A DNA stretch of 64,000 bases from Amorphoplanes friuliensis DSM 7358 (GTDB taxonomy: Bacteria; Actinomycetota; Actinomycetes; Mycobacteriales; Micromonosporaceae). The stretch covers positions 6,974,001-7,038,000 of the forward strand of contig NC_022657.1 of NCBI RefSeq assembly GCF_000494755.1, in the 5' to 3' direction. A program made the position numbers and the translations under genes. Shown in pieces: positions 1 to 16,509 of this stretch. The notes below the pieces were generated by a model that was not told where the DNA came from, made no database searches, and saw only the letters and a list, made by a program, of their open reading frames with translations. Position 1 is the stretch's first letter, and each line of letters starts with the position of its first letter.

Positions 1-346
1 GCTCCCCGACCAGGCCGCGGGTGTCGACGATCGTGCCGCCCGCGACGTCGGTCACCACCCGGTCCGGCAGCCCGGCCCGGTCGACGGTGCCGCGCCGGAT
101 CAGGTAGACGTCGACGCCGTCGGCGCGCAGGCGCGAGACGATGCGTTCGCGGGCGACCTGGCGCTCGGTGGTGAGGAGCTCGACAGCGAGCGCCGATTTT
201 TCGATCAGGTCCTCGCGGGCGGCGTTGTTGGCGGACCGCACGGCGATCGGGAGGGCCACGAGCGCGGTGATGATCACGGCAACGACCGCGGTGGCCGCCG
301 TGACCAGCACCGTCCGCCCGGACAGGGTGCCGAGGAACCTACGCAT
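1..346 (-). CDS. Two-component sensor histidine kinase, N-terminal part (truncated by window edge)
   Basis: About 115 codons are visible. The start is the ATG at 346, which overlaps the stop of the upstream response-regulator gene by 8 bases, a typical sign of translational coupling. The protein begins with a short basic leader, then one hydrophobic segment (about residues 10-32, rich in Val/Ala/Ile), then a polar stretch expected to be the extracytoplasmic sensor region. The HAMP, dimerisation and ATPase domains lie outside the window, so the kinase call rests on position after an OmpR-type regulator and on topology. The signal sensed cannot be told from what is present. Confidence 0.75.
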   Translation of the reverse strand, partial: MRRFLGTLSGRTVLVTAATAVVAVIITALVALPIAVRSANNAAREDLIEKSALAVELLTTERQVARERIVSRLRADGVDVYLIRRGTVDRAGLPDRVVTDVAGGTIVDTRGLVGE

Positions 347-1019: not shown

Positions 1020-1048
1020 CGCACCATCATGCCCGTCCGGGCGGCGGC

Positions 1049-2290
1049 TCAATGTTCGGATGTTGTACGGGTCGCGAGCGCGGCAGCCCGCAGTGTCAGA
1101 TAGCGCTGCTCGGGCAGGCTGGCCGTCATCTCCGCCGCCCGCAGGTAACAGGCGTGCGCGGCCGCGGTGTCACCGGCGAGCTCGAGCAGATGGGCCCGGA
1201 CCGACTCGAGCCGGTGGTTGGCGGCCATCCGCTCGTCGCTGTCCAGCTCGGCGAGCACGGCCAGACCGGCCAGCGGTCCCCGGGCGCGAGCCACGGCGAC
1301 CGCGCGGTTCAGCGTGACCACCGGCCCGGGTGAGACGCGTTCGAGCACGTCGTAGAGCGCGAGGATCTGCGGCCAGTCGGTCGCCGCGGCGGTCGTGGCC
1401 TCGTCGTGCAGCGCGGCGATCGCGGCCTGCAACTGGTACGCCCCGATCGGCCCACGGCCGAGCGTTCCCGAGACCAGCGCCACCCCCTCGGTGATGAAGG
1501 CGGTGTTCCACAACGTCCGGTCCTGCTCGTCGAGCGGGACCAGCGCACCGTGGGCGTCCGTCCGGGCGGCCCGGCGCGCGTCGGTGAGCAGCATCAGCGC
1601 CAGCAGCCCGGCGGTCTCGCCGTCACCGGGGACCAGCCGGTGCAGCATCCGGGTCAGCCGGATCGCCTCGGCGGTCAGGTCGGCACGGTGCAGCTGCGCC
1701 CCGGCGCTGGTCGTGTAGCCCTCGTTGAAGACGAGGTAGAGCACCTGCCGCACCACCCGCAGCCGCTCGGCGCGCTCACCCTCGGGTGGTGCGGTGAAAC
1801 CCAGCCCGCTGGCCCGGATCCGCTGTTTGGCGCGGCTGATGCGCTGCGCCATCGTGGCCTCGGGGACGAGGAAGGCTCGGGCAATCTCGGCCGTGCTGAG
1901 GCCACCGACCGCCCGCAGGGTCAGCGCGAGCTGCGAGGGCCCGGACAGCGAGGGATGGCAGCACAGGAACAGCAGGGTGAGGGTGTCGTCCTCCTCCGGC
2001 GCGGCGGCCGGTCCGGACGGTTCGAGCAGCGCGACGTTCTCCTCGCGGGCCCGGCGTGCGCTCTCGCTGCGCCACTCGTCGACCAGGCGCCGCCCGGCCA
2101 CCGTGATGAGCCAGGAACGCGGGTTGTCCGGCAGCCCTTCGACGGGCCACTTGAGCGCGGCGGAGAGCAGCGCTTCCTGCACCGCGTCCTCGGCCGCGTC
2201 GAACTGCCCGTACCGGCGGACGAGGAACCCGAGGGCCTGCGGCGCCAGCTCGCGCAGCAGGCCCTCGATCCGGGGGTCGTCCGTCGTCAC
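1049..2290 (-). CDS. ECF42-type RNA polymerase sigma factor with C-terminal extension
   Basis: A 413-residue protein. Residues about 1-170 carry the sigma-70 region 2 (QFDAAEDAVQEALLSAALKW, then NPRSWLITVAGRRLVDEWR) and region 4 helix-turn-helix (LSTAEIARAFLVPEATMAQRI). The remaining ~230 residues form the long, helical, TPR-like extension typical of the ECF42 group (includes FNEGYTTS and TLNRAVAVA motifs). The start is the GTG at 2290, which overlaps the stop of the upstream YCII/DGPF gene by four bases (GTGA). Pairing with a DGPF protein is the genomic hallmark of ECF42 sigma factors, which lack a classical anti-sigma factor and are thought to be controlled through the extension. The regulon is unknown. 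Confidence 0.92.
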   Translation of the reverse strand: MTTDDPRIEGLLRELAPQALGFLVRRYGQFDAAEDAVQEALLSAALKWPVEGLPDNPRSWLITVAGRRLVDEWRSESARRAREENVALLEPSGPAAAPEEDDTLTLLFLCCHPSLSGPSQLALTLRAVGGLSTAEIARAFLVPEATMAQRISRAKQRIRASGLGFTAPPEGERAERLRVVRQVLYLVFNEGYTTSAGAQLHRADLTAEAIRLTRMLHRLVPGDGETAGLLALMLLTDARRAARTDAHGALVPLDEQDRTLWNTAFITEGVALVSGTLGRGPIGAYQLQAAIAALHDEATTAAATDWPQILALYDVLERVSPGPVVTLNRAVAVARARGPLAGLAVLAELDSDERMAANHRLESVRAHLLELAGDTAAAHACYLRAAEMTASLPEQRYLTLRAAALATRTTSEH

Positions 2291-2646
2291 AGCTCGGGCG
2301 GGCCCGCGGGAACCTCGCGCAGCTCGACCCGCTCGGCCCAGACGACAACCTCGCCGGCCCGCTCGATCGCGCGCTTCTCGTCGGCGACATCGAGGATCCA
2401 GAATCCGGCGAGGGACTCCTTGGCCTCCGCGAACGGCCCGTCGGTGACCACCACCTGACCGTCCACGAGGCTGACCGTCTTGGCCGAGGACGGGTCGGCC
2501 AGGCCCTCGGCCACGAGGAACTCGCCGGATTTCTGCAGGTCGGCGTTGAACGACTCCATGAACGCGATCATCTCGCCGAACCACTCCTGAGTGTGGCTCT
2601 GCATCATGGTGGCGCCGTCGCCGAACATCATCAGCATGTACTTCAT
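2287..2646 (-). CDS. DGPF/YCII-related protein, partner of the ECF42 sigma factor
   Basis: A 119-residue single-domain protein of the YCII fold. It contains the diagnostic DGPF motif (VVVTDGPFAEAKESLAGFW), preceded by a strand ending in VDGQ, and begins MKYMLMMFG as is usual in this family. It is the first gene of a two-gene operon with the sigma factor (4-base overlap). In ECF42 loci such proteins are presumed targets or modulators of the sigma factor; the biochemical role is not established. A small dimeric alpha/beta-barrel enzyme function is possible from the fold but unproven. Confidence 0.9.
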   Translation of the reverse strand: MKYMLMMFGDGATMMQSHTQEWFGEMIAFMESFNADLQKSGEFLVAEGLADPSSAKTVSLVDGQVVVTDGPFAEAKESLAGFWILDVADEKRAIERAGEVVVWAERVELREVPAGPPEL

Positions 2647-2785: not shown

Positions 2786-2805
2786 CTTGGAGAGCGCTCT
2801 CCAAG
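2786..2805. promoter_or_regulatory. LacI-type operator O1 (distal, glycosidase promoter)
   Basis: Perfect 20-base palindrome CTTGGAGAGCGCTCTCCAAG with the central CG dyad typical of LacI/PurR sites. It shares the GGAGAGCGCTCTCC core with sites upstream of the other discoidin-domain genes and of the LacI gene at 15451. Centre is 178 bp upstream of O2, about 17 helical turns. Confidence 0.85.
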
Positions 2806-2964
2806 AAGCATCCAACCTCGTCGCTCCAGCCGTCGCTGTCAAGAGATCCAGATCCGATTAGCGGCCTTTGACGGCATAAGCAGGACGACTTTGGCGGCTC
2901 GAAGCTCGCACACGCGCCTCCGCTATTGACACGAATGAAAAGCGGGCGTAACACTGCGGCAAGC

Positions 2965-2982
2965 ATGGAGAGCGCTCTCCAT
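2965..2982. promoter_or_regulatory. LacI-type operator O2 (proximal, glycosidase promoter)
   Basis: Perfect 18-base palindrome ATGGAGAGCGCTCTCCAT, centred about 58 bases before the GTG start at 3032, where bound repressor would cover the promoter or block the transcript start. Same core as O1, O3, O4 and O5. Confidence 0.85.
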
Positions 2983-3031
2983 CATCTCGATCCGCTCCCC
3001 GCGACTCCGTCCCCGATCGTCAGGAGTTCCC

Positions 3032-6000
3032 GTGCATCCGGCCTCTCCCCCGGCGCCTCCCCGAGCGCCCAGACCCCGCCGCTGGCGCCGGTTGATCCCC
3101 GTCACCGTGCTCGCCGTCGTCGCCGCCTATCTCGGCGTCGTGCAGCTCACCGCGCACGCCGCCGATTCGTTGCTGTCGCAGGGCAGGACAGCCACCGCCT
3201 CGTCGCAGGAGGGCGCCGACGTCGCGGCCGCCAACGCGGTCGACGGCAACGCCGGCACCCGCTGGTCCAGCGTCTTCGCCGACCCGCAGTGGCTGCAGGT
3301 CGACCTCGGCGCGACCGCCACCATCAACCAGGTCGTGCTGCAGTGGGAGGGCGCGTACGGCAAGGCGTACAAGATCCAGACCAGTGCGAACGGCACCACC
3401 TGGACCGACGTCTACTCGACCACCATCGGCGCGGGCGGCACGGAAACGCTGGCCGTGACCGGAAGCGGCCGGTACGTCCGGATGTACGGCACCGCGCGGG
3501 CGAGCGGCTACGGCTACTCGCTCTACGAGTTCAAGGTCTACGGCTCGACCGGCGCCACACCTCCGCCGGCCGAATGCGGCACCAGCAACGCCGCGCAGGG
3601 CAGGACCGCCACCGCGTCCTCTCAGGAGGGTGCGGACGTCTCGGCCGCGAAGGCCGTCGACGGTGACGCGGGATCACGCTGGTCCAGCGTCTTCGCCGAC
3701 CCGCAGTGGCTGCAGGTCGACCTCGGCTCCAGCCAGACGATCTGCCAGGTCGTGCTGCAGTGGGAAGGCGCGTACGGCAAGGCGTACAAGATCCAGACCA
3801 GTGCGAACGGCACCACCTGGACCGACGTCTACTCCACGACCACGGGCGCCGGCGGCACCGAGACGCTGACCGTCAGCGGCACCGGCCGCTACGTGCGCAT
3901 GTCCGGCACCGTGCGCGGCAGCGGCTACGGCTACTCGCTCTACGAGTTCAAGGTCTTCACCGGTGGTGGTGGCACCCCGCCGACCGACCCGACCACCCCG
4001 CCGCCGATCCCGGGCAACTTCACGACGGTCTGGACCGACGACTTCACCGGCGGCGCCAACACCTCACCGAACTCCGCGAACTGGCTGCTGCGCACCGGCA
4101 CCCAGTACCCCGGCGGCGCCGCCAACTGGGGCACCGGTGAGGTCGAGACCGCGAGCGACTCCACCGCGAACGTCTACCTCGACGGCGCCGGCAAGCTCAA
4201 CATCAAGGCGATCCGGGACGGCGCGGGCAAGTGGACCTCCGGCCGGATCGAGACGCAGCGCACCGACTTCGAGCCGCTCGCCGGACAGCAGACGAAGTTC
4301 ACCGCCGTCCTCAAGCAGCCCGACGTCGCCAACGCCGCGGGGTACTGGCCCGGCTTCCGCGCGACCGGCGCGGCCTACCGCGGCAACTACACCAACTGGC
4401 CCGGTGTCGGCGAGACCGACATCATGACCGACGTCAACGGCCGCAGCCAGCTGTCGCAGACCCTGCACTGCGGCACCGCGCCCGACGGGCCGTGCGCCGA
4501 GTACAACGGGCGGCAGAGCGGGCTGGCCAGCTGCACCGGCTGCCAGACCGGATTCCACGAGTACACCCAGATCGTCGACCGGACCAGGACCGACGAGGAG
4601 ATCCGCTTCTACCTCGACGGCCGGCAGACGTGGGTCGTGCGGCAGTCGCAGGTCGGGGTCACCGCGTGGAACGCCGCCGTGCACCACGGCTTCTTCCTCC
4701 GCTTCGACCTGGCCATCGGCGGCTCGCTGCCGAACGCCATCGCCGGTTTCACCACCCCCACCCCGGAGACCACCTCCGGCGGGGTGCTCAGCGTCGACTC
4801 CGTGACGGTCGCCCGCGCCACCGGCACCACGCCGGCCGCTATGACCGACCCGGCCACACCGTCCGGACCGTCGACCGTGCGGGTCACCGGCTCCCAGGGC
4901 AACTGGCAGCTCACCGTCAACGGCTCCCCGTACGAGGTCAAGGGCATCACGTACGGCCCGCCGCAGGCCGCCGCCGACGGGTACATGCGCGACCTGAAGA
5001 ACATGGGCGTCAACACGATCCGCCTCTGGGGTGTCGACGACACCAACACCCCGGTGCTGCTCGACCGCGCCGCCCAGCAGGGCATCAAGGTCGTCGTCGG
5101 GCACTGGCTCAACCAGGGCGCGGACTACGTGAACGACACCGCGTACAAGACCAACACGAAGAACGAGATCGTGGCCCGGGTCAACGCGCTCAAGGGCAAG
5201 CAGGGCGTCCTGATGTGGGACGTCGGCAACGAGGTCATCCTCACGATGCAGGACCACGGGCTCTCCGCCGCCGAGGTCGAGGCGCGGCGGGTCGCGTACG
5301 CGAAGTACGTCAACGAATTGGCCGTCGCGATCCACGCCGCGGACCCGAACCACCCGGTCACCTCGACGGACGCGTACACCGGGGCGTGGAAGTACTACAA
5401 GGCCGACTCGCCCGCGCTGGACCTGCTGGCCGTGAACTCGTACGGCGCGATCGGCGGCGTCAAGCAGGACTGGATCAGCGGCGGTTACACCAAGCCGTAC
5501 ATCCTGACCGAGGGTGGCCCGGACGGCGAGTGGGAGGTGCCCAACGACGTCAACGGGGTGCCGACCGAGCCGACCGACCTGCAGAAACGCGCCGGGTACA
5601 CCGCGAGCTGGAACGCCATCAAGTCGCACCCGGGTGTGGCGCTCGGCGCGACCGAGTTCCACTACGGTCTCGAGAACGACTTCGGCGGCGTGTGGCTCAA
5701 CACCTTCACCGGCGGCTGGCGCCGGCTCGGGTACCACGCGCTGAAGCAGGCGTACACCGGGCAGGCCTCGGCGAACACCCCGCCGGAGATCAACTCGATG
5801 TCGGTGAGCAACCAGACCGCCGTACCGGCGGGCGGGACGTTCACCATCAACGCCGGTGTCAGCGACCCGAACGGTGACCTGATCCGCTACAACCTGATGT
5901 ACAGCAACAAGCACATCACCGGCGGGACCGGCCTCACCAACGTCGTCTTCACCGACAACGGCAACGGCTCGTTCACCGCGAAGGCCCCCGAACAGCTCGG

Positions 6001-6490
6001 GGTCTGGAAGGTCTACGTCTACGCCTTCGACGGGCAGGGCAACGTCGGCATCGACCAGCGCTCGTTCAAGGTGGTTCCGCCGACGATCCCCGGCACGAAC
6101 CTGTCGCAGGGCAAGACCGTCACCGCGTCGTCCTACCAGCCGACCGGCACGAACGGACCACAGCTGCCCGCGTACGCCGTGGACGGCAACTACAGCACCC
6201 GCTGGGCCAGCGAATGGGTCGACACCGCCTGGGTGCAGGTCGACCTGGGCTCGGTGCAGTCGTTCAACCGGGTGCTGCTGGCCTGGGAAGCCGCGTACGC
6301 CAAGGGGTACACGGTCCAGGTCTCCGACAACGGCAGCACCTGGACCACCGTCCACACCGCGACGGCCGGCAACGGCGGCTTCGACGACCTGGCGATCTCC
6401 GGCACCGGCCGGTACGTCCGGGTCAACGGCACCGCCCGCGCCACCGATTACGGCTACTCCCTGTGGGAGCTCGGCGTCTACCGCAGCTGA
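3032..6490 (+). CDS. Secreted multidomain glycosidase: GH16-like + clan-A barrel + three discoidin domains
   Basis: A 1152-residue exported protein. The GTG at 3032 is preceded by AGGAG at 3022-3026. Order: Arg/Pro-rich n-region and signal peptide ending AHA near residue 43; discoidin (F5/8 C, CBM32-like) domains at about 45-172 and 185-310; Pro/Thr linker; GH16-like domain about 328-600; a TIM-barrel domain about 612-925 with WDVGNE (acid/base Glu734) and ILTEGG (nucleophile Glu827), as in clan GH-A; an Ig-like domain about 930-1015; and a third, more divergent discoidin domain to the end. In the GH16-like part the catalytic motif reads GETDIMTD (Glu461, Asp463, then Thr466), so the usual acid/base Glu is absent. 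The likely substrate is a beta-glucan or similar polymer (inference). Two LacI-type operators precede it and a hairpin terminator follows. Confidence 0.88.
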   Translation: MHPASPPAPPRAPRPRRWRRLIPVTVLAVVAAYLGVVQLTAHAADSLLSQGRTATASSQEGADVAAANAVDGNAGTRWSSVFADPQWLQVDLGATATINQVVLQWEGAYGKAYKIQTSANGTTWTDVYSTTIGAGGTETLAVTGSGRYVRMYGTARASGYGYSLYEFKVYGSTGATPPPAECGTSNAAQGRTATASSQEGADVSAAKAVDGDAGSRWSSVFADPQWLQVDLGSSQTICQVVLQWEGAYGKAYKIQTSANGTTWTDVYSTTTGAGGTETLTVSGTGRYVRMSGTVRGSGYGYSLYEFKVFTGGGGTPPTDPTTPPPIPGNFTTVWTDDFTGGANTSPNSANWLLRTGTQYPGGAANWGTGEVETASDSTANVYLDGAGKLNIKAIRDGAGKWTSGRIETQRTDFEPLAGQQTKFTAVLKQPDVANAAGYWPGFRATGAAYRGNYTNWPGVGETDIMTDVNGRSQLSQTLHCGTAPDGPCAEYNGRQSGLASCTGCQTGFHEYTQIVDRTRTDEEIRFYLDGRQTWVVRQSQVGVTAWNAAVHHGFFLRFDLAIGGSLPNAIAGFTTPTPETTSGGVLSVDSVTVARATGTTPAAMTDPATPSGPSTVRVTGSQGNWQLTVNGSPYEVKGITYGPPQAAADGYMRDLKNMGVNTIRLWGVDDTNTPVLLDRAAQQGIKVVVGHWLNQGADYVNDTAYKTNTKNEIVARVNALKGKQGVLMWDVGNEVILTMQDHGLSAAEVEARRVAYAKYVNELAVAIHAADPNHPVTSTDAYTGAWKYYKADSPALDLLAVNSYGAIGGVKQDWISGGYTKPYILTEGGPDGEWEVPNDVNGVPTEPTDLQKRAGYTASWNAIKSHPGVALGATEFHYGLENDFGGVWLNTFTGGWRRLGYHALKQAYTGQASANTPPEINSMSVSNQTAVPAGGTFTINAGVSDPNGDLIRYNLMYSNKHITGGTGLTNVVFTDNGNGSFTAKAPEQLGVWKVYVYAFDGQGNVGIDQRSFKVVPPTIPGTNLSQGKTVTASSYQPTGTNGPQLPAYAVDGNYSTRWASEWVDTAWVQVDLGSVQSFNRVLLAWEAAYAKGYTVQVSDNGSTWTTVHTATAGNGGFDDLAISGTGRYVRVNGTARATDYGYSLWELGVYRS

Positions 6491-6536
6491 GCAACGGACC
6501 GACGGCGGACGTCTGGCGGTGGCCGCCGTACCGGAA

Positions 6537-6574
6537 CCGTGGCGCCCCTTCCTTTCCGGGAGGGGGCGCCACGG
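6537..6574. terminator. Hairpin terminator after the glycosidase gene
   Basis: Arms of 12 bases (CCGTGGCGCCCC and its complement) separated by a 14-base loop, starting 46 bases after the glycosidase stop, followed by CGCTTTG. It separates the glycosidase from the next plus-strand gene at 6594. Confidence 0.75.
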
Positions 6575-6593
6575 CGCTTTGTAGAGTCGATGG

Positions 6594-7922
6594 ATGTCCA
6601 GCGTGATCGAGCTCGGGCTGATCCCCGGTGACGCTCCCGAGCCGCCGGCACGCCCGCGGCGGCTGCGGGTGCCCCCGCGGACCGGGGTCGTGGTTGTCGC
6701 GGTCCTGTGCGCGCTCACGCTCACCGGATCGGCGCTGCCGCGTTCGCGGGCGCCGCTCCCGCTCTGGAGCATCCGCCTCGACGTCAGTGTCGCCAGCTCC
6801 TTCGCCGTGACGGGCGACGGCGTCTACGTCCTCACCGGTACGAGCCAGGGGCGCCGGCTCACCGCTTACGACCGGCGTACGGGTGTCTCCCGCTGGAGTG
6901 TTCCGGTGGCACGGCTCGCGAGCAGCTTCGGCCTGGTCCGGGCCGGGGTGATCCAGCTGGCGGTCGAGCCGGAACCGGCCGTCGAGTGGCAACAGGACGG
7001 CAGCCGGGTCAGCCGCACGACCGGGCGGAGGACCATCGGCATCGACGCGGCCACCGGACGGCAGCTCTGGATGCTTCCCGGTGATCTCTCCTTCACCCGG
7101 GACGGACTGGCCGTCGCCGCCGACTGGGACGAAACGGGTTCCGTCCTGCTGTCCTTGCGCATCGTCGACGTCCGGAGCGGTGCCACGGTTTGGACCCACC
7201 CGGCCCGAGGTCTGAGTTCCTGGGGGCTCTCCGACACGATCGCCGCCAGCCGCGTGGTTACCGCAGCGCCCGACGGCCGGGTCGAGGTCCGCGACCTCGC
7301 CGACGGCCGGCTGGTGACGTCACGCGTGCTGCCACAGCTCACGCGGACCGGGCCGGACGACGCTCCGGCCGACCTCGGCGTCGCCGGCGATCTGGTCCTG
7401 CTCAAGGAGCAGGAGGCCCTCACCGCGCACGACGCGACGACGTTGCGCGAGCGGTGGCGCCTCGGCACCGAACGGTTCCAGGGCTCCTACGGCTGTGCGC
7501 CGATCCTGTGTGTCACCAGCGATTCGGGGACTGCCGGCGTCGACCCGGCCACCGGGAGGCAGCTCTGGCGGCGTCCGGGCAGCGGCCTGTCGATCGACCT
7601 GGGTGCCGGCGTCGTCCTGGACCAGGGCAACGACGGAAGCCGGTCGGCGCTGATCGACACCGCCACCGGGCGCACCCTCGTCGACCTGGGCTCGGGCGGC
7701 GTGGCGTGGAACGACGGCGAGGCCGTCGAACCGTTGCCCGTGCTGCTGCCGACCCGCGACCCGGCGGGGCGCACCGCGGCCGGCCGGCTGGACCAGCGCA
7801 CGGGCCGGGTCACCTGGCTGGGCACGATCGACCCGGTGGGCAGTTTCGCCTGCCGATCGGCGGGCGCCATCATGGCCTGTGTGACCGGCTTCGAGCTGAC
7901 GGTCATCGACCTCGCACCCTAG
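6594..7922 (+). CDS. Membrane-anchored PQQ-like beta-propeller protein, copy 1
   Basis: A 442-residue protein with one membrane-spanning segment near the N-terminus (about residues 28-46) and a large extracytoplasmic region. It is built from PQQ/WD-like blades: recurrent patterns such as RLTAYDRRTGVSRW, GIDAATGRQLWML, VRSGATVWTHP and GVDPATGRQLWRR mark successive blades ending in Trp. Quinoprotein catalytic residues are not evident, so it is probably a binding or scaffold propeller rather than a dehydrogenase. It is followed after nine bases by a close paralogue in the same orientation, so the two are likely co-transcribed. Function unknown. Confidence 0.78.
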   Translation: MSSVIELGLIPGDAPEPPARPRRLRVPPRTGVVVVAVLCALTLTGSALPRSRAPLPLWSIRLDVSVASSFAVTGDGVYVLTGTSQGRRLTAYDRRTGVSRWSVPVARLASSFGLVRAGVIQLAVEPEPAVEWQQDGSRVSRTTGRRTIGIDAATGRQLWMLPGDLSFTRDGLAVAADWDETGSVLLSLRIVDVRSGATVWTHPARGLSSWGLSDTIAASRVVTAAPDGRVEVRDLADGRLVTSRVLPQLTRTGPDDAPADLGVAGDLVLLKEQEALTAHDATTLRERWRLGTERFQGSYGCAPILCVTSDSGTAGVDPATGRQLWRRPGSGLSIDLGAGVVLDQGNDGSRSALIDTATGRTLVDLGSGGVAWNDGEAVEPLPVLLPTRDPAGRTAAGRLDQRTGRVTWLGTIDPVGSFACRSAGAIMACVTGFELTVIDLAP

Positions 7923-7931
7923 GATGCGACC

Positions 7932-9266
7932 GTGAGCGTCATCGAGCTCGGGCTGGTCACGGCCGACGCTCCCGAACCACCCGCACCTGACTGGCGGCAT
8001 CAGCTGCCGCGGTTCGGGGCGGGTGCCGTCGCGGTCCTCTGTGCGCTCACGCTCACCGGTTCGGTGCCACCCCGGTCGCAGGCGCCGCTCCCGCTCTGGA
8101 GTGTCGGCCTCGACGTCAGTGTCTCCAGTTCCTTCGCCATGATGAACGACGGTCTCTACGTCCTCGCCGGTGCGGAGGACCAGCGCCGGCTCACCCGGTA
8201 CGACCCGCGTACCGGCGCCACCCGCTGGAGTGTGCCGGTGGCGCGGCTGGCGACCACGCTGAGTTTCATCCGGTCCGGCGTGATCCAGCTTCCGGTCGAG
8301 CGCGAACCGGTGATCGAGTGGCAGGAGGACGGCAGCCGGGTCAGCCGCACCTCCGGGCAGGAGACCGTCGGCATCGACACGGCCACCGGACAGCAGCTCT
8401 GGACGCTGCCGGGTGATCTCTCGTTCACCCGGGACGGACGGGCCGTGATCGCCGACTGGGACGACACCGGCGCCGCCCTGCGCTCGCTGCGGGTGGTGGA
8501 CGTGCACAGCGGTGCCACCGTCTGGACCCACCCGGGTCGCGGGCTGCGGACCTGGGCGGTTCCCGACGACACGGCCGCCGGGCTGCTGGTCACCGCCGCG
8601 AACGACGGGCAGGTCGAGGTCCGGGACCTGGCCGGCGGCCGGCTGGTGACCTCACGCCGGCTGCCGCAACTGGCCGGGGCGAGCCGGGACGACACCTCGG
8701 CCGACCTCGGCGTCGCCGGTGACGTCGTGCTGACGCAGGACGTGGACGGCGGGAAGGCCACGCTGAAGGCGTACGACACGATGACGATGCGCGAGCTCTG
8801 GCACCTCGGCGCCGACCGGTTCCAGGGCTTCTTCGGCTGCGCACCGGTCCTCTGCATCACCACCGAGGCCGGGACGTCGGGCCACGATCTGGCCACCGGG
8901 CAAAAGCTCTGGCAGCGCGAGGGCGGCGGCCTGTCCATCTCGTTGAGCGACGGTGTCCTCATGGACCAGGGTGAGGACGCGTCCCGGTCGATCCTGGTCG
9001 ACACCGGCACCGGCCGGACGATCATCGACCTGGAGGCAGGCGGTGTCGCGTGGAACGACAGCGACAGGAACGAGCCGGTCGCCGTGCTGCTCCCGACCCG
9101 CGCCCCGCCGGGGAACACCGCGGTCGGCCGGCTCGACCAGCGCACCGGCCGGGTGACGTGGCGGGGCCTGATCGATCCGGTGGAGAGCTTCGCCTGCCGG
9201 GCCGCGGGCACCCTGATGGCCTGCACCACGGGCACTCAGCTCTCGGTCCTCGACCTGGCGCCGTAG
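7932..9266 (+). CDS. Membrane-anchored PQQ-like beta-propeller protein, copy 2 (tandem paralogue)
   Basis: A 444-residue paralogue of the preceding gene, similar along its whole length. The starts align (SVIELGL in both), as do the membrane segment (LCALTLTGS), the propeller blades (GIDTATGQQLW, VHSGATVWTHPGRG) and the C-terminal GRLDQRTGRVTW block. The GTG start at 7932 lies nine bases after the previous stop, with no terminator between. Divergence is spread evenly rather than concentrated in a domain, as expected of an older tandem duplication. No enzymatic residues were recognised. Confidence 0.78.
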   Translation: MSVIELGLVTADAPEPPAPDWRHQLPRFGAGAVAVLCALTLTGSVPPRSQAPLPLWSVGLDVSVSSSFAMMNDGLYVLAGAEDQRRLTRYDPRTGATRWSVPVARLATTLSFIRSGVIQLPVEREPVIEWQEDGSRVSRTSGQETVGIDTATGQQLWTLPGDLSFTRDGRAVIADWDDTGAALRSLRVVDVHSGATVWTHPGRGLRTWAVPDDTAAGLLVTAANDGQVEVRDLAGGRLVTSRRLPQLAGASRDDTSADLGVAGDVVLTQDVDGGKATLKAYDTMTMRELWHLGADRFQGFFGCAPVLCITTEAGTSGHDLATGQKLWQREGGGLSISLSDGVLMDQGEDASRSILVDTGTGRTIIDLEAGGVAWNDSDRNEPVAVLLPTRAPPGNTAVGRLDQRTGRVTWRGLIDPVESFACRAAGTLMACTTGTQLSVLDLAP

Positions 9267-9415
9267 CGCTCCAGGTCAGCCCGGCGGCCAGTTCGGTGAT
9301 CCAGGCGGCGTGACCGGGGCAGTAGCGCACGGGTTTCTCACCCGGGAGGAAGACGCGCTCGAGATGACCGCCGGGGCGCCCCGTCGAGATCCAGCAGCAG
9401 AACGGGCCGGCTCAC
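9267..9415 (-). pseudogene. Remnant of a HAD-like hydrolase gene
   Basis: Reading the minus strand from a GTG at 9415 gives SRPVLLLDLDG, the phosphoacceptor motif with which small actinobacterial HAD hydrolases begin. After a change of frame and apparent internal loss it continues as GGHLERVFLPGEKPVRYCPG and HAAWITELAAGLTW, matching the next part of such proteins as I know them. The remnant ends against the stop of the upstream propeller gene, so the C-terminal two thirds are missing. No intact frame spans it. Homology is recognised by eye only. Confidence 0.6.
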
Positions 9416-9451
9416 CGTGCCGTTGAAACCCGGCGGGCTTACGGTCGGAGC

Positions 9452-10252
9452 ATGCGGGTCATGACCTGGAACGTGTGGTGGCGTTTCGGCGGCAACTGGC
9501 GCGAGCGGGCCACCGGCATCAAGATCACCCTGGAGACGTACCAGCCGGATGTGATCGGGCTGGTCGAGACCTGGGCCGGGAACGGGACAACTCAGCCGGA
9601 CGAGCTGGCGCGGATCCTCGGCCTGCACGCGGCTTTTGCGCCCACGTCGCTGCCGCCGGCACCGGACCCGATCGAACATCCGGACCAGGCCGGGGTGACC
9701 GTCGGTCTCGGTCTGCTCAGCCGCTGGCCGATCCTGCGGACCAGGGTGCACGAGCTGCCGCACCCGCAGCGCGGTGGTGAACCGCCCACGGCCCTGGTCG
9801 CGACCCTGGACCATCCGCGCGGCGAGCTGCACGTCATCGTCACGTGCCGGGAGTGGGAGCCGCACCACGCGGCCGACCGTCTTGCCCAGTCGGAGGCGCT
9901 GGCCGAACTGATCATGGATCCCGCCCTGGACGGCCCGCTGCCGGTCCTGCTGGTCGGCGACCTGAACGCCCCGCCGGACGAGCCCGAGCTCGCGCCGCTG
10001 CGTGAGGTCACCGTCGACACCTGGGAAGCCGGTGGCGGTGATCCCGGGGTGACCACACTGGACTCGTTGCTGCCGTACGCGCCGCTGGAGGCGACAACAC
10101 TGATCGACCGCCGGATCGACCACGTGCTGGTCCGGCCCGGGCGGCCGGGTGTGGCGGTCACGGTCCGCGGGGCCTTCATCGCGGGCGACCGCCCGATCGA
10201 CGGCCACTACCCGTCGGACCACTACGCCATCGGCGCGGACCTGGATCCCTGA
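9452..10252 (+). CDS. Endonuclease/exonuclease/phosphatase family protein
   Basis: A 266-residue single-domain protein of the EEP (DNase I-like) superfamily, without a signal peptide. Visible landmarks are MTWNVWW at the start (metal-binding Asn), the catalytic Glu in GLVETW, the GDLNAPPDEPE segment (Asp/Asn pair), the RIDHVLV motif, and the terminal SDHYAI (Asp-His). All catalytic positions of the fold are present, so it should be an active metal-dependent phosphoesterase. Whether it acts on nucleic acid, phosphoinositide-like or other substrates cannot be told. It ends convergently against the beta-helix gene, with a bidirectional terminator between them. Confidence 0.88.
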   Translation: MRVMTWNVWWRFGGNWRERATGIKITLETYQPDVIGLVETWAGNGTTQPDELARILGLHAAFAPTSLPPAPDPIEHPDQAGVTVGLGLLSRWPILRTRVHELPHPQRGGEPPTALVATLDHPRGELHVIVTCREWEPHHAADRLAQSEALAELIMDPALDGPLPVLLVGDLNAPPDEPELAPLREVTVDTWEAGGGDPGVTTLDSLLPYAPLEATTLIDRRIDHVLVRPGRPGVAVTVRGAFIAGDRPIDGHYPSDHYAIGADLDP

Positions 10253-10268
10253 CGGAGCTGGAGGCCCC

Positions 10269-10303
10269 TGCGCGCCACGGCCTCGGTGGCACCGTGGCGC
10301 GCA
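10269..10303. terminator. Bidirectional hairpin terminator between convergent genes
   Basis: Perfect 12-base arms (TGCGCGCCACGG and its complement) with an 11-base loop, between the EEP gene ending at 10252 and the beta-helix gene ending at 10315. The symmetric position suggests it serves both strands. Confidence 0.75.
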
Positions 10304-10314
10304 AGGGAATTCTG

Positions 10315-12957
10315 TTACGGGCCGGACGTCAGGTACTGGATCTCCGCACCCTTCTGCGCCGTACCACCCTTGTCGTTGATGATCTTGTTGATGGTGCCCT
10401 GGCCGCCGAGCGAGACGGTGACCATGTTGGTGAACTGGATGCCGGGCTTGACCGGGGCCTCGATCGCGCGCTCCCCCACCACCGACTGGTCGAGGGTGAA
10501 GACGCAGTAGCTGCCCAGACCCCACGCCTGGTGGGTGTTCACCGTGTCGGCGACCTTGTAGGCCGCGTAACCACGGGTCGCCCCGTTCATCCAGGACGCT
10601 TGGTTCGGCATCTCGTAGGGCATCTCGTTCTGGTAGAAGTACGTCCGGCCTCGTTCGCCGTTCCAGACCGTCTGATACTTCTGGAAGTGCTCGACGAACA
10701 GGCCGTACATCGTGACGTCGGCGCCGTTGACGACCAGGCCCTGGTCGGCGGTGTTGACCGACCAGCCGACGCCGTCACCGTGGTCCGCGCGCCACAGCCA
10801 CAGGTGGTCGCCGATGACGTTGTTGCTGTTGACGACGACGCTGGTGGTGGCCCGGCCGATGCCCGAGCCGCCGATCCGGACGAAGACGTCGTGCAGCGAG
10901 ATCGGGTTCGCGGCGTTGTTCGCGCTGCTGCCCGCCTGACCGACCTCGATCAGCGTCGGCGAGTTGGTGGCGCCGGCCTCGACGAGCACACCCGCCAGCT
11001 TCACCCCGGCGACGTCGGCGATCTTGACGGCCGCGGTGCCCGTGGTCGGCCGCAGTGTGGCGAGACCCAGACCGAGGATCACGGTGTCCGGGCGGTTCAC
11101 CTGCAGCGCCTGGTCGACGTTGTAGACGCCCGGTGTGAACAGCAGGTTCTTGCCCTGCGCGAGGGCGGCGTTCATGGTCGCCGCGGTGGCGCCCGGACGG
11201 ACGACGGAGAAGTCGCTCAGCGAGATCGACGAGCCGGCCGGGGTCTTGTTGTACCAGCTCGTGCCGGTGCTGTTCTGGCGTAGTGCCGGGACGAACACCT
11301 TGTACTCGCCGGTGCTGTCCACGTACAGGAAGGGCTTCTCCCGGACCGTGGGGGTGGTGTTGATGACCGTGTGGGAGGGATTGGGGAAGTTGGGGGCGGG
11401 GGCGCCCTGCACACCCTGGAAGACCATGTTCCAGACCGATCCGGCCCAGCTGCCGAACTCGCTGTTGCGCGAGTACCACTGCTGCTGCGAGCCGGAGACG
11501 ACCGCACCGTCCACCTTGGTGTCGGCCATCAGGCCGCCGGACGACCAGCCGTCACCACCGTTCCAGAGCTGGATCTGGTTGCCCGCACCCTTGAGGTGCA
11601 TCCGGCGGTACGGCGCGGCCTGCGAGACGGCGTACCGCTCGACGGTCGTACCGGCGGGGAGGGTGACCGACAGGTTCTCGGCGACCCGCCAGAAGTTCTG
11701 GGTGGCGTTGCCGTTCATCCAGCCGGCCTCGACACGCACGTGGCCGTTGAGGTTGACGTCGTCGGGCGACAGGCCCAGCCCGGACACCTGGGTGAAGAAG
11801 CCGAGGTTGACGTCGGCCGAGTAGTTGCCCGGCTTGAACAGCACGGCGTAGCGCTCGGGACCGAACTGGTTGGTCTCCTGCGCGGTGAAGAGCGCGTTCA
11901 GACGGTTCTGGATCGTGGCGGCCGGCGTCGACGGGTCGAAGACGTTGACGTTCGGGCCGAGGTTGGGGTTACGCGGGTCGGTCGGCTCGACAGGGTCACC
12001 CGTCGTCGGCGGCGGCGTCACGCTGCCCGAGCCGGTGAAGACCTTGAGTTCGTACAGCGAGTAGCCGTAGCCGCTGCCACGGACGGTGCCGTACATCCGC
12101 ACGTAGCGGCCGGAGCCCGTCACGGCGAGGGTCTCGGTGCCGCCCGCACCAGCGGCCGTGGAGAAGCTGTCGGTCCAGGTGGTGCCGTTCGCACTGGTCT
12201 GGATCTTGTACGCCTTGCCGTACGCGCCCTCCCACTGCAGCACCACCCGGCAGATCGACTGGGTGCTGCCGAGGTCGACCTGCAACCACTGCGGGTCACT
12301 GAACTGGCTCGACCAGCGGGTGCCGGCGTCACCGTCCACGGCCTTCGCGGCGGCGACGTCGGCGCCCTCCTGCGACGAGGCGGTCGCAGTCTTCCCCTGG
12401 GCCGCGTTGGTCGTGCCGCACTCGGACGGCGGCGGGTTGGCACTCGTGGAGCCGTAGACCTTGAACTCGTAGAGCGAGTAGCCGTAGCCGCTCGCGCGGG
12501 TCGTGCCGTACATCCGGACGTAGCGCCCCGACCCCGTCACGGCCAGCGTTTCCGTGCCGCCCGCGCCCGTGGTCGTCGAGTAGACGTCGGTCCAGGCGGT
12601 GCCGTTCGCACTGGTCTGGATCTTGTACGCCTTCCCGTACGCGCCCTCCCACTGCAGCACCACCTGACTGATGGTGGCGGTGGCACCGAGGTCGACCTGC
12701 AGCCACTGCGGGTCGGCGAAGACGCTGGACCACCGCGTACCGGCGTTGCCGTCCACTGCCTTCGCGGCCGAGACGTCGGCGCCCTCCTGCGACGAGGCGG
12801 TCGCGGTCTTCCCCTGCGACAGCAGCGTGTCGGCCGCACTGGCCGAGGTGGTGACGGACGCGACGGTCAGGCCCAGCGCCGTGGCGAGGACGGCGGCGAG
12901 CACGGTGAACTTGCGGCGTCTGCGCCGGGGCGGCGCAGCCAGGGGTATCGGAGTCAT
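10315..12957 (-). CDS. Secreted beta-helix protein with two N-terminal discoidin domains
   Basis: An 880-residue exported protein. The ATG at 12957 is preferred because longer starts would run into the LacI-type operator at 12987-13004. A signal peptide with a poly-Arg n-region (PPRRRRRKFTVLAA) ends near ASA-ADT. Two discoidin/CBM32-like domains follow (about residues 43-170 and 183-311), nearly identical in sequence to those of the glycosidase at 3032. After a Pro-rich linker comes a ~560-residue region with repeating short strands and Asn/Val/Gly turns (GVYNVDQALQVNRPDTVILG, NPISLHDVFVRIGG, VNGADVTMYGLFVEHFQ), characteristic of a right-handed parallel beta-helix (pectate-lyase-like fold). 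The sugar substrate and catalytic residues are not recognisable; lyase or glycosidase are both possible. Confidence 0.82.
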   Translation of the reverse strand: MTPIPLAAPPRRRRRKFTVLAAVLATALGLTVASVTTSASAADTLLSQGKTATASSQEGADVSAAKAVDGNAGTRWSSVFADPQWLQVDLGATATISQVVLQWEGAYGKAYKIQTSANGTAWTDVYSTTTGAGGTETLAVTGSGRYVRMYGTTRASGYGYSLYEFKVYGSTSANPPPSECGTTNAAQGKTATASSQEGADVAAAKAVDGDAGTRWSSQFSDPQWLQVDLGSTQSICRVVLQWEGAYGKAYKIQTSANGTTWTDSFSTAAGAGGTETLAVTGSGRYVRMYGTVRGSGYGYSLYELKVFTGSGSVTPPPTTGDPVEPTDPRNPNLGPNVNVFDPSTPAATIQNRLNALFTAQETNQFGPERYAVLFKPGNYSADVNLGFFTQVSGLGLSPDDVNLNGHVRVEAGWMNGNATQNFWRVAENLSVTLPAGTTVERYAVSQAAPYRRMHLKGAGNQIQLWNGGDGWSSGGLMADTKVDGAVVSGSQQQWYSRNSEFGSWAGSVWNMVFQGVQGAPAPNFPNPSHTVINTTPTVREKPFLYVDSTGEYKVFVPALRQNSTGTSWYNKTPAGSSISLSDFSVVRPGATAATMNAALAQGKNLLFTPGVYNVDQALQVNRPDTVILGLGLATLRPTTGTAAVKIADVAGVKLAGVLVEAGATNSPTLIEVGQAGSSANNAANPISLHDVFVRIGGSGIGRATTSVVVNSNNVIGDHLWLWRADHGDGVGWSVNTADQGLVVNGADVTMYGLFVEHFQKYQTVWNGERGRTYFYQNEMPYEMPNQASWMNGATRGYAAYKVADTVNTHQAWGLGSYCVFTLDQSVVGERAIEAPVKPGIQFTNMVTVSLGGQGTINKIINDKGGTAQKGAEIQYLTSGP

Positions 12958-12986
12958 GGCGCTACCTGTCGCTCGAGGAATGATCT

Positions 12987-13004
12987 TGGGAAAGCGCTCT
13001 CCCA
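12987..13004. promoter_or_regulatory. LacI-type operator O3 (beta-helix gene)
   Basis: TGGGAAAGCGCTCTCCCA, palindromic except for one position pair, centred 38 bases upstream of the ATG at 12957. Same core as the other four operators. Confidence 0.82.
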
Positions 13005-13174
13005 CTGCTGCGATTGTTACGGGGACGTTGCGTCACGTCAATACGCTGGGGTTCCGGAATTGAAAGATGACGCCGTGAAGGAAGGGCCAATGCCGCATTG
13101 ACACCCGAGTCGGCGGCATTGACACTGAGACGCTTCCCTTTCGGCTTTCGCGCCCCGTGTGGAATGGAGTCGGC

Positions 13175-13735
13175 GTGATCTATCCGCAGCGCACGGCCGT
13201 GGCCGGCTGTCTGCTCGCCCTGCTGCTGGGCGCCTCGGCCTGCGACGCGGGCACCGCCTCGGCCCCGCCGCCGGCGGCCAGTTCCGCCGCGTCGTCCTTC
13301 TTCGGCGGCACCGACCTGGCCTGGGTCGAGATCAACATCGCGATGAACGAGGAGCTGCTCCCGCTGCTCGACCTGGTCCCCGCACACAGCACCGACCCCG
13401 AGGTCAAAGCACTGGTCACCGAGGTCAGAGCCGTCAACGACCAGGAGCTGGCCACCCTGCGGGCCCTGCACGACGAGGCGAAGCTCCCCGCCGAGAACCC
13501 GCACAAGGGCATGCCGATGCCGGGCATGATGACCCCCGAACTGGTCGCGGAGGCCGCCAAGGTGCGCGGACCTGCGTTCGACAAACTGCTGCTGGCCCAC
13601 CTCGAGGCGCACTTCGACCAGGGTGTGCGGCTGGCCGGCAGCGAGGAGAAATCCGGACTCGAGCCCCGCACCAAGGCACTCGCCGGCGAGGTCATCGGCA
13701 CCCGCAAAAAATATCTGCCGAAAGTCGCCGGATAA
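13175..13735 (+). CDS. DUF305-type lipoprotein
   Basis: A 186-residue lipoprotein. The start is the GTG at 13175, with GGAG five bases upstream; an in-frame GTG at 13157 is the alternative. A hydrophobic segment is followed by the lipobox LGASAC, so Cys should be lipidated and the protein tethered outside the membrane. After a Ser/Ala/Pro linker comes a helical domain with the DUF305 pattern: acidic and histidine/methionine-rich segments (MNEELLPLLDLV, HKGMPMPGMMTPE, LLAHLEAHFDQGVRLA). DUF305 proteins have a ferritin-like four-helix fold and some bind copper; the His/Met content here fits metal binding, but that is inference. Confidence 0.85.
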   Translation: MIYPQRTAVAGCLLALLLGASACDAGTASAPPPAASSAASSFFGGTDLAWVEINIAMNEELLPLLDLVPAHSTDPEVKALVTEVRAVNDQELATLRALHDEAKLPAENPHKGMPMPGMMTPELVAEAAKVRGPAFDKLLLAHLEAHFDQGVRLAGSEEKSGLEPRTKALAGEVIGTRKKYLPKVAG

Positions 13736-13755
13736 TTGTTATCGAGCGGACCGTA

Positions 13756-13791
13756 AATCGTCCGGGTGCCCGTGCGGGCACCCGGACGATT
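13756..13791. terminator. Bidirectional hairpin terminator (17-bp perfect stem)
   Basis: Perfect 17-base arms (AATCGTCCGGGTGCCCG and complement) around a two-base TG turn, followed on the plus strand by GCTTTTATC. It lies between the convergent DUF305 and DUF1996 genes and probably ends both transcripts. Confidence 0.85.
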
Positions 13792-13802
13792 GCTTTTATC
13801 GG

Positions 13803-15209
13803 TTACGGAAGGACGTAGTTCTCGTTGAGCGCCGCACCCCGCTCGGGCTTGTACTGATCGAAGCCGCGCGGGTCACACTGCAGCCCGCCCTTGATGCAGT
13901 GGTTGACGAGCGCGTTCAGGGTCGGCGCGTCCCAGGCGTTGTAGAAGTCGTAGTGGAACGAGTAGGCCCGCCCGCTCGACAGCTTGACGTTCGCCATGTT
14001 CCCGCTGACCGGGAACGCCATCTTGAACTCGATCATCGGGACGGCCACCGGGTGACTCGCCGGACAGACACCCACCGTCGGGTACGCCATGTGGCTCTTG
14101 TGGTCGGGCGTGTCCAGGTGGATGCCGTCCCAGCAGCTCGGAGCCTGGTACCGGATGTTCAGCTGCGTGCCGTCCGGGCAGGACGCCGGGAAGTCCCAGT
14201 TACGGACGCTGTCGCCGCACTCCCAGCCCTCGACGGCGCCGGGCGCGTTCTTGAACTCGTCCAGCGTCGCCACCGGACTGCCCACCACGTACCGCAGACC
14301 GGGAGGAGACGGGCGGACACTGCGGTAGTCGATCACGCCGCTCTTGTAGTAGATGACCTGACGGCCGAGCGGCTGCACCGCGGTGGTGCCGTTGAGCAGC
14401 GTCGGCATCCAGTACCCGGTCTTGTCACCCGGCGTGATGCACGAGGTGCCGCCCGCGTTCAGGCTGGCCAGTGTCGTCGCGGCGTTCGTGGTCGTGTTGC
14501 CCATGAACGTGTGCGAGTGGGAAGCGCCCGGCATGTTCGGGAAGACGATCGGGTCGTCGGGCAGGTTCGACCGGCTCACCGAACAGTTCGCCTGGAACTC
14601 GTGGTGCGTGGTGGGCGGGTTCGTCGCCGGCGGGGTGGCCGTCGACGGGACCACACCGGTCACCGGCGGGTTCGCGAGGACATAACCGTCACCACCACCG
14701 GCGGGCGGGGTGCTGCCGCTCGTGCCGTACACCTTGAACTCGTACAGCGAGTAGCCGTAGCCGGTGCCGCGCTGGGTGCCGTAGAGACGGACGTACCGGC
14801 CGCTGCCGTTGACCGTCAGCGTCTGCGTGCCGCCGGTCGCCGTTGTGGTGCTGTAGATGCTGGTCCAGGCGTTGCCGTCCGGCGAGGTCTGGATCTGGAA
14901 CGACTTCGCGTACGCCGCCTCCCACTGCAGCACGACCTGACTGATCGTGGCCGTGCTGCCGAGATCGACACGCAGCCACTGCGGGTCGGCCCACTGGCTG
15001 CCCCAGCGGGTGTCGGCCCGGCCGTCGACCGCGGCGGCCGCGGGCGACTCGCCGTTCTCCAGCGAGGAGGCGAGCGCCGGCCTGCCCTGCGACAGCAGAG
15101 TGTCGGCGGCGTGCGCCGACTGAACCCCCGCCACCAGCAGCGATCCGGCGACGGCGGCCACGCCGAGCGGCGCGATGAGCCGTCTGAACCGGCTTTTCCC
15201 TGATCTCAT
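13803..15209 (-). CDS. Secreted DUF1996 protein with one discoidin domain
   Basis: A 468-residue exported protein. The ATG at 15209 has GGGAG upstream. A signal peptide (RFRRLIAPLGVAAVAG ... AHA) is followed by one discoidin/CBM32-like domain (about residues 45-175), a Gly/Pro/Thr linker, and a DUF1996 domain of about 250 residues with its characteristic HHEFQANC beginning, SHSHTFMG, GYWMPTL, the SCWDGIHLD motif and a C-terminal HYDFYNAW segment. DUF1996 is common in fungi and soil actinomycetes and has no established activity; conserved His/Cys/Asp suggest an enzyme or metal site. The shared discoidin domain and operator tie it to the two other secreted proteins of this island. Confidence 0.88.
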   Translation of the reverse strand: MRSGKSRFRRLIAPLGVAAVAGSLLVAGVQSAHAADTLLSQGRPALASSLENGESPAAAAVDGRADTRWGSQWADPQWLRVDLGSTATISQVVLQWEAAYAKSFQIQTSPDGNAWTSIYSTTTATGGTQTLTVNGSGRYVRLYGTQRGTGYGYSLYEFKVYGTSGSTPPAGGGDGYVLANPPVTGVVPSTATPPATNPPTTHHEFQANCSVSRSNLPDDPIVFPNMPGASHSHTFMGNTTTNAATTLASLNAGGTSCITPGDKTGYWMPTLLNGTTAVQPLGRQVIYYKSGVIDYRSVRPSPPGLRYVVGSPVATLDEFKNAPGAVEGWECGDSVRNWDFPASCPDGTQLNIRYQAPSCWDGIHLDTPDHKSHMAYPTVGVCPASHPVAVPMIEFKMAFPVSGNMANVKLSSGRAYSFHYDFYNAWDAPTLNALVNHCIKGGLQCDPRGFDQYKPERGAALNENYVLP

Positions 15210-15284
15210 GAGTTCTCCCACGGGGACGAGGACGAGTGCCTCACCGGACGGCGGTGCGGGGATCGGCCGACGAGGCGGGACGTA

Positions 15285-15305
15285 CTTGGAGAGCGCTTTC
15301 CGAAG
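15285..15305. promoter_or_regulatory. LacI-type operator O4 (DUF1996 gene)
   Basis: CTTGGAGAGCGCTTTCCGAAG, an imperfect copy of the shared palindrome, centred 85 bases upstream of the DUF1996 start. Its centre is 104 bp (about 10 helical turns) from O5 in front of the divergent LacI gene. Confidence 0.8.
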
Positions 15306-15390
15306 TGTTACGCCCAAGTTGCACGCTCGTCAATATGCTGGGGCAGATCCGGAACTAATACGCGGCGCACCGGGGCTGGAGCGGTCTTGT

Positions 15391-15406
15391 CGGAGAGCGC
15401 TCTCCG
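15391..15406. promoter_or_regulatory. LacI-type operator O5 (autoregulation of the LacI gene)
   Basis: Perfect palindrome CGGAGAGCGCTCTCCG, followed nine bases later by a TATAAA candidate -10 element (15415-15420) and 52 bases before the GTG start of the LacI gene. This position would give negative autoregulation. Confidence 0.83.
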
Positions 15407-15450: not shown

Positions 15451-16509
15451 GTGACCGCCGGCACCGGACGGGTGCCCGTGGGTGAGCGACTGCCGACCCT
15501 CGAGGACGTCGCCCGGGTCGCCGGAGTGTCCCGGGCGACCGTCTCCCGCGTCATCAACGGCATCCGCAACGTCGACCCGCAGCTCCACGAAATGGTGTGG
15601 AACGCGGTCGGCCAGACGGGTTACGTCCCCAACCGGCTGGCACGCTCCCTGGTCACCCGGCGCACCGGCACGGTCGCCCTGGTCGTCTCCGACTCCGAGT
15701 CCCACGACGACGACCCGTTCATGGGCCGCTTCTTCGCCGACCCGTACTTCGGCCGCGTCGTCGGCGGCCTGATGAGCGTCCTGCGTACGGCCGGCATCCA
15801 GCTCGCCCTCCAGATCGTCGGCACCGAGGAACAACGCACCCGCCTCGTCGGCGACCTCCGCCACGGCCTCGCCGACGGCGTGATCGTCCTGTCCCTGCCG
15901 GGCCACGACCCGCTCCCCCGCATGCTCACCGACGCCGGCGTCCCCGCCGTACTGATCGGCCGCCCCGCCGACCCCGTCCCCATCAACTACGTCGACCTCG
16001 CCAACGACACCGGCGCGTCCCTCGCCGCCGACCACCTCGTCACCCGCGGCTGCCAGCTCATAGGCATGATCTCCGGCCCGGCCGACGTCCCCGCCAGCAA
16101 CGACCGCATCACCGGCTTCCGCCGCTCCATGGCCCGCCACGGCCACGCCTGGGTCCCCCTCGTCTCCGGCAACTTCACCCAGGAGAGCGGCGAAGAAGCC
16201 ATGCGTACGCTCCTCGCCGAAAACCCCCGCCTCGACGGCGTCTTCGTCGCCAACGACCTGATGGCCCTCGGCGCCCTCCTCGCCCTCCGCGACGCCGGCC
16301 GCCAGGTCCCTGCCGACGTCGCCATGGTCGGCTTCGACGACAGCAGCGCGGCGGTGGCCGCCAGCCCGGCCCTGACGACGGTCCGGCACCCCCTGGAAGA
16401 CATGGCGGCGGAGAGCGCCCGGCTGCTCCTGGCCCGCGTCGAGGACCCGACGATGCGCATCTCGTCCGTCATCTACGAACCCACCCTGATCGTCCGCCAG
16501 TCGGCCTGA
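15451..16509 (+). CDS. LacI-family transcriptional regulator, probable master of the discoidin regulon
   Basis: A 352-residue LacI/GalR regulator. The GTG at 15451 (GGAG nine bases upstream) places the helix-turn-helix at the usual distance from the N-terminus (LEDVARVAGVSRATVSRVIN), followed by the hinge helix (NRLARSLVTRRT) that reads the central CG of LacI operators. The periplasmic-binding-protein-like core includes GMISGP, FVANDLMALGALLALRDAGR and VGFDDS, the usual sugar-binding architecture. It is transcribed divergently from the DUF1996 gene. Five copies of one palindrome, including one at its own promoter, lie only upstream of the three secreted discoidin proteins and of itself, so it most likely represses them until a sugar effector binds. 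The effector is unknown. Confidence 0.93.
   Translation: MTAGTGRVPVGERLPTLEDVARVAGVSRATVSRVINGIRNVDPQLHEMVWNAVGQTGYVPNRLARSLVTRRTGTVALVVSDSESHDDDPFMGRFFADPYFGRVVGGLMSVLRTAGIQLALQIVGTEEQRTRLVGDLRHGLADGVIVLSLPGHDPLPRMLTDAGVPAVLIGRPADPVPINYVDLANDTGASLAADHLVTRGCQLIGMISGPADVPASNDRITGFRRSMARHGHAWVPLVSGNFTQESGEEAMRTLLAENPRLDGVFVANDLMALGALLALRDAGRQVPADVAMVGFDDSSAAVAASPALTTVRHPLEDMAAESARLLLARVEDPTMRISSVIYEPTLIVRQSA

Follow-up and report, generated by a model that had tools for sequence, protein, structure and literature searches.

In a 64-kb stretch of the genome of the soil actinobacterium Amorphoplanes friuliensis (the window, that is, the whole 64,000 nt analyzed), the gene for a LacI-family regulator lies close to three genes whose products have export-type N-termini, as judged solely by reading their sequences. 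The locus raises the question of whether a single operator ties these genes into one regulon and, if so, which polymer the regulon would serve. The genes concerned are the following:

3032-6490, plus strand: predicted secreted CBM32-CBM32-GH16(degenerate)-GH158-CBM32 protein, from domain and PDB matches
10315-12957, minus strand: predicted secreted CBM32-CBM32-GH55 beta-1,3-glucanase, the "beta-helix protein" of the original prediction, from its match to 4pew
13175-13735, plus strand: DUF305 gene, a frequent neighbor of DUF1996
13803-15209, minus strand: predicted secreted CBM32-DUF1996 protein (PF09362), a conserved partner in related loci
15451-16509, plus strand: LacI-family repressor, CelR-like, from Pfam and PDB matches

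The original prediction placed five copies of one palindrome at this locus, two before the GH16/GH158 gene and one each before the genes for the beta-helix protein, DUF1996 and LacI. Allowing up to one mismatch to GGAGAGCGCTCTCC, we recovered exactly these five in the window and none besides, against 0.04 expected (mean of dinucleotide shuffles of the window, with a maximum of 1):

2789-2802: operator O1, a perfect palindrome, CTTGGAGAGCGCTCTCCAAG in its extended form, with O2 following 178 bp downstream
2967-2980: operator O2, a perfect palindrome, immediately past the promoter of the GH16/GH158 gene
12989-13002: operator O3, GGAAAGCGCTCTCC, flanked by the GH55 gene and, divergent from it, the DUF305 gene
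15288-15301: operator O4, GGAGAGCGCTTTCC, immediately 3' of the -10 element of the DUF1996 gene and conserved in orthologous loci
15392-15405: operator O5, a perfect palindrome, just upstream of the lacI TATAAA and 104 bp from O4

Variants of one to three bases had also been admitted as copies, which holds only up to one mismatch: a search of the window at three mismatches returned eight matches against 8.85 expected, and since this is the level of chance, the set with at most one mismatch alone should be used. Nor is the motif common in front of unrelated genes; a genome-wide pattern search found three perfect copies of GGAGAGCGCTCTCC in the 9.38 Mb, all of them at this locus. A sixth site with the outer bases G...C of the locus lies elsewhere in the genome, at 5687957, ~250 bp from the gene for a ThuA/CBM32 protein. 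Upstream paired sites such as O1 and O2 are also seen in relatives.

The three target genes have putative promoters of a common form, TTGACA/G-N16-17-TAACACT/TAACAAT, assigned by inspection:

2926-2955, plus strand: putative promoter TTGACA-N17-TAACACT of the GH16/GH158 gene
13013-13041, minus strand: putative promoter TTGACG-N16-TAACAAT of the GH55 gene
15304-15333, minus strand: putative promoter TTGACG-N17-TAACACT of the DUF1996 gene

At each of them, a palindrome lies directly 3' of the putative -10 element; the position just past the -10 is a classical site for a repressor.

The product of the gene at 15451 belongs to the LacI family by its HTH (PF00356, E 4.6e-14) and PF13377 (E 1.2e-34) domains, both above the curated cut-offs, and its closest solved relative is 5ysz (E 3e-71), CelR of Thermobifida fusca. 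The match to the PBP domain runs to residue 351 of 352 and, since the protein ends where this domain ends, no C-terminal leucine-heptad tetramerization helix is apparent, although the helical phasing described below suggests that operators are in contact. The conserved palindromes in its own promoter and in those of its neighbors lend support to the predicted binding of a palindromic operator by this regulator.

The catalytic modules of the targets point to the polymer. The beta-helix protein is a GH55 enzyme, homologous over the full length of its catalytic domain to SacteLam55A, an exo-beta-1,3-glucanase from Streptomyces sp. SirexAA-E (4pew, E 4e-206); it retains the active-site Glu in FYQNE, the residue mutated to Ala in 4pex, and differs from SacteLam55A in having two N-terminal CBM32 domains and in lying under a GGAGAGCGCTCTCC-type operator. 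It had looked unrecognized because no Pfam model matches its catalytic region and, of the two components predicted to be unrecognized, only the DUF1996 protein stands as such. The product of the gene at 3032 had been described as a GH16/clan-A glycosidase; its clan-A part is an intact GH158 module, and its GH16 part is catalytically degenerate. The GH158 module matches 9oro (E 7e-29) and keeps both catalytic Glu motifs (WDVGNE and TEGG), being homologous to the domains in 9oro and 6pal, although here it sits behind two CBM32 domains and the degenerate GH16 module. The latter matches actinobacterial endo-beta-1,3-glucanases (7eo3/3dgt, E ~1e-75) but reads GETDIMT in place of the GExDIME of 3dgt and 7eo3, departing from the ExDxxE motif of active GH16 enzymes, so that its acid/base Glu is lost. 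Among 77 extracted GH16-GH158 fusions (with some loci entered twice), the third acid of this motif is Thr in 74, Ala in one and Glu in two, both from Streptomycetaceae, while the catalytic GH158 motifs are intact in nearly all. The degenerate GH16 module is most likely a beta-glucan-binding module.

The discoidin (CBM32) domains of the three proteins had been called nearly identical, a description that fits the N-terminal pairs of the GH16/GH158 and GH55 proteins (79-93% identity) but neither the single domain of the DUF1996 protein (61-70% identical to those pairs) nor the C-terminal domain of the GH16/GH158 protein (47-53%). Their nearest relatives in the PDB are the CBM32 domains of a Paenibacillus glucanase/chitosanase. 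Since one target is a GH55 glucanase and another combines GH158 with a GH16 module, the target polymer is almost certainly beta-1,3-glucan, the chief wall polymer of fungi. Two tandem genes for PQQ-like beta-propellers (6594-7922 and 7932-9266) immediately follow the GH16/GH158 gene, and a homolog of these adjoins paired operators in another genome (G010, locus L260).

Across 49 genomes of the Actinoplanes group (Amorphoplanes, Paractinoplanes and others), we found orthologs of the LacI regulator (76-94% identity) in 42, and GGAGAGCGCTYTCC was present in 41 of these 42 versus one of the seven genomes lacking lacI (Fisher p 3e-6, with the caveat that loci sharing descent are not independent). 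One genome with lacI, G008, contains degenerate sites only. By hand count, 97 G...C sites in 28 lacI-containing genomes were distributed as 83 at the lacI locus, four before a GH16/GH158 gene located on a separate contig, and 10 elsewhere. When the outlying sites were inspected one by one, some were near a two-component system, with several relatives retaining one such site, some preceded a pair of alginate-lyase-like and GH55 genes, and one was inside a gene. Given these sites and that at 5687957, a few targets of the regulon may be missing or spurious.

The unit in the Actinoplanes group consists of LacI, DUF1996 and GH16-GH158, each with its own site, with GH55 added in a few species. LacI, DUF1996, GH158 and GH55 also occur in varied combinations and with the same operator in Streptomyces, Planotetraspora, Sphaerisporangium, Nonomuraea, Lentzea, Kineosporia and relatives; the cassette predates the Actinoplanes-group genus. 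The sites of two Kribbella have the form AGAGAGCGCTCTCT or AGAGAGCGCTCTCC, and two small genomes (L148 and L158) carry the cassette genes together without a GGAGAGCGCTCTCC-type operator. In a set of 80 loci, the operator was found from -400 to +60 of the gene start for 63 of 84 DUF1996 genes, 48 of 57 GH158, 36 of 53 LacI and six of 17 GH55 genes, versus 31 of 679 other genes, and three control palindromes had zero occurrences in the same promoter regions. Outside the window, genes were called with a simple codon model and annotated from their BLAST matches among the proteins of the window, which leaves gene starts and some of the counts approximate, and a few species entered both the genome set and the 80-locus set. 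The predicted arrangement of one LacI regulator, one type of operator, three secreted targets, autoregulation and one polymer is supported, and the phylogenetic evidence is strong.

In Streptomyces tateyamensis and Streptomyces sp. SPB162, an ABC importer operon with a GH3 gene behind it (assigned by Pfam on the homolog in L208) likewise has the operator upstream, as would be expected of the uptake and intracellular steps for a beta-gluco-oligosaccharide. In the A. friuliensis genome, we found no importer or GH3/beta-glucosidase gene with this operator, and the nearest homologs of the solute-binding protein have no site nearby. DUF305 may be part of the regulon, with the operator upstream in 11 of 38 cases. 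The DUF305 gene adjoins DUF1996 across actinobacterial families, and is sometimes co-directional and right behind it.

The spacing between paired operators is quantized. In 35 loci, the lacI and DUF1996 operators are separated by 83, 93/94, 103/104 or 114/115 bp, with a few larger values, and the best period is 10.42 bp (R 0.85; p 0.013 using distinct values only). Pairs upstream of GH158 behave likewise (24 loci; best period 10.84; distinct values p 0.0002), and phasing is weaker outside the Actinoplanes group (p 0.07); all these tests use a jitter null, in which shared ancestry stays in. Paired operators thus share one helical face, which points to cooperative binding or looping between two dimers; since two divergent promoters alone need no whole helical turns, cooperation or looping would be the likely cause.

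Instead of being a second GH16/GH158 operator, the site at 2789 could serve the divergent YCII-sigma-response regulator-kinase operon (2-2646, minus strand), which would tie a two-component system to the regulon. This operon starts at 2646, 143 bp from the site, and in L251, L252 and L253, where the two-component genes are found elsewhere, a G...C palindrome occurs 104-305 bp upstream of the response regulator gene. However, paired upstream sites also occur beside other neighbors, such as a pectate lyase gene (L259) or DUF1996 (L219 and L238), and some loci adjoining YCII carry one site only, and we consider this role for the site less likely than not.

The regulon of the LacI protein at 15451 had been thought self-contained, which is correct for sites with outer bases G...C; related palindromes with other outer bases, however, precede other beta-1,3-glucanase genes in the genome. 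Dispersed copies of the 12-bp core precede genes for GH64 (three), GH81, GH55, GH43 and an unknown secreted protein, and their outer bases are mostly T...A as opposed to the G...C of the locus. The look-alikes at 708915, 2941937, 7248842, 338814, 3727276, 7121636, 7396878 and 8029363 stand, in this order, before GH55 (the first two), a protease gene followed by GH64, GH64, GH43, GH81, GH64 and the gene for a secreted protein of 485 aa. The latter (8029401-8030858; L029:4039-5496), behind TGAGAGCGCTCTCA, has no sequence match in Pfam or the PDB and is a candidate for a new glycan-active family.

Control of the dispersed NGAGAGCGCTCTCN sites before GH64, GH81 and GH55 by the same LacI, in a larger genome-wide regulon, would agree with their intergenic location before secreted glycosidases, mostly beta-1,3-glucanases, with a common substrate that makes common control plausible, and with the variants with other outer bases found in the same loci of Streptomyces relatives. 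Nevertheless, genomes without lacI keep the dispersed core sites (mean 6.0, 3-10 per genome, versus 7.7 with lacI when outer bases are ignored; p 0.18) yet lose the G...C class, the outer bases differ between the two sets, and the A. friuliensis genome has other close LacI paralogs, all of which makes the larger regulon improbable. Treating all genomic NGAGAGCGCTCTCN sites as one regulon was likewise set back by the persistence of core sites in genomes lacking lacI. The look-alike sites are probably a second beta-1,3-glucan regulon under another LacI, and the simplest reading is that of two regulators with related operators and substrates, told apart by the outer base pair. Finally, it is very hard to credit that the palindrome is a general LacI-family consensus read by several regulators, with no dedicated one: the CelR sites of actinobacteria resemble it (PMC3377646) and half-sites of the LacI type are much like one another, but the G...C class tracks lacI at 15451 in presence, absence, position and occurrence in its own promoter, both in the Actinoplanes group and in other families.

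Within the regulon of the LacI protein at 15451, the DUF1996 protein matches PF09362 with E 3.5e-43 and 148.8 bits, against a gathering cut-off of 27, and in 50 homologs residues E30, D44, D45, H57, H59, D88, D192, H196, H199, H245 and D247, together with eight Cys, are invariant (domain numbering). The AlphaFold model of DUF1996 is confident (mean pLDDT 85.7; 221 of 294 residues at 90 or above); profile searches gave no match in the PDB, fold searches gave a best E of 0.06 with TM <0.2, and a fold search against viral models gave no significant match. We infer that the protein is a secreted enzyme or an accessory for the same polymer, although it may have a lectin-like or structural role. Tentatively, and with the balance leaning somewhat against it, we suggest that DUF1996 could be a new secreted catalytic domain, with a fold unseen in solved structures and an invariant His/Asp set (HxH, HxxH, HxD), working with GH158 and GH55 to attack or modify the beta-1,3-glucan of fungal walls or the cross-links of that polymer. 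DUF1996 proteins of the fungus Beauveria bassiana are vacuolar and without known activity, and their mutants are sensitive to cell-wall perturbation (PMC4738358). They share with the bacterial protein the DPIxxP head, the HxH motif and the HxD...W tail, but consist of DUF1996 alone; the bacterial protein is predicted to be secreted and carries a CBM32.

A paralogous cassette with the order GH16 (motif intact)-DUF1996-LacI exists at 7374000-7378300 of the same genome (L085:7064-11285), with a LacI (7377254) ~50% (49%) identical to the regulator at 15451. Use of the same operator by this cassette was ruled out, there being no such palindrome in its promoters; a different palindrome, GTTCCGGAAC, recurs before the paralogous cassette in several relatives. 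Both cassettes are adjacent in some species.

The closest known system is the CelR regulon of T. fusca, also governed by a LacI-family repressor of secreted polysaccharide-degrading enzymes, and CebR of Streptomyces is comparable. The CelR site is also a 14-bp palindrome with the same AGCGCT center, from which GGAGAGCGCTCTCC differs by two bases per half-site (PMC3377646). The targets here are beta-1,3-glucanases and DUF1996 instead of cellulases, and the set includes no importer in the Actinoplanes group. The system has neither the CelR operator nor the cellulase or cellobiose-importer targets of CelR/CebR; it would work like CelR without being CelR. In the literature we found no prior account of the operator, of DUF1996 with glucan or of GH158, GH55 and DUF1996 together, nor any that linked DUF1996 to GH158 or to the use of beta-glucan by bacteria. 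For the palindrome itself, we found a single earlier mention, one sentence on GGAGAGCGCTCTCC upstream of Sros_7173 in Streptosporangium roseum, where a putative cellobiose importer was taken to have it as a second site (Anderson et al., 2012; PMC3377646). That site is the same palindrome before a sugar importer, but no regulator or link to glucanases was assigned there.

We are confident, short of certainty, that the locus is a beta-1,3-glucan utilization regulon under the LacI protein at 15451, comprising GH16/GH158, GH55 and DUF1996. Starting from the observed sites, protein families, residue loss, co-conservation and phasing, we infer the following course of binding, repression and induction, and the part of DUF1996 in it. 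The regulator would bind GGARAGCGCTYTCC where the GH16/GH158, GH55 and DUF1996 transcripts begin, as well as at the lacI promoter, and so repress these genes. Extracellular glucanase activity would yield a short beta-1,3-gluco-oligosaccharide, most likely laminaribiose, that would release the repressor. Upon release, GH158 (endo), GH55 (exo) and DUF1996, each with CBM32, would be secreted together.

An operator noticed once with neither regulator nor substrate would thereby be assigned both, and actinobacteria would have, for beta-1,3-glucan, an equivalent of the switch that CelR/CebR provides for cellulose. The GH16 fold has been retained across families after loss of a catalytic residue, and the spacing of operator pairs in helical steps predicts cooperative repression. 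Likewise, the large family DUF1996, widespread also in fungi, is placed inside a defined enzymatic pathway, which makes its function directly testable; if the catalytic role suggested above is true, the fungal DUF1996 proteins would act on the fungus's own glucans.
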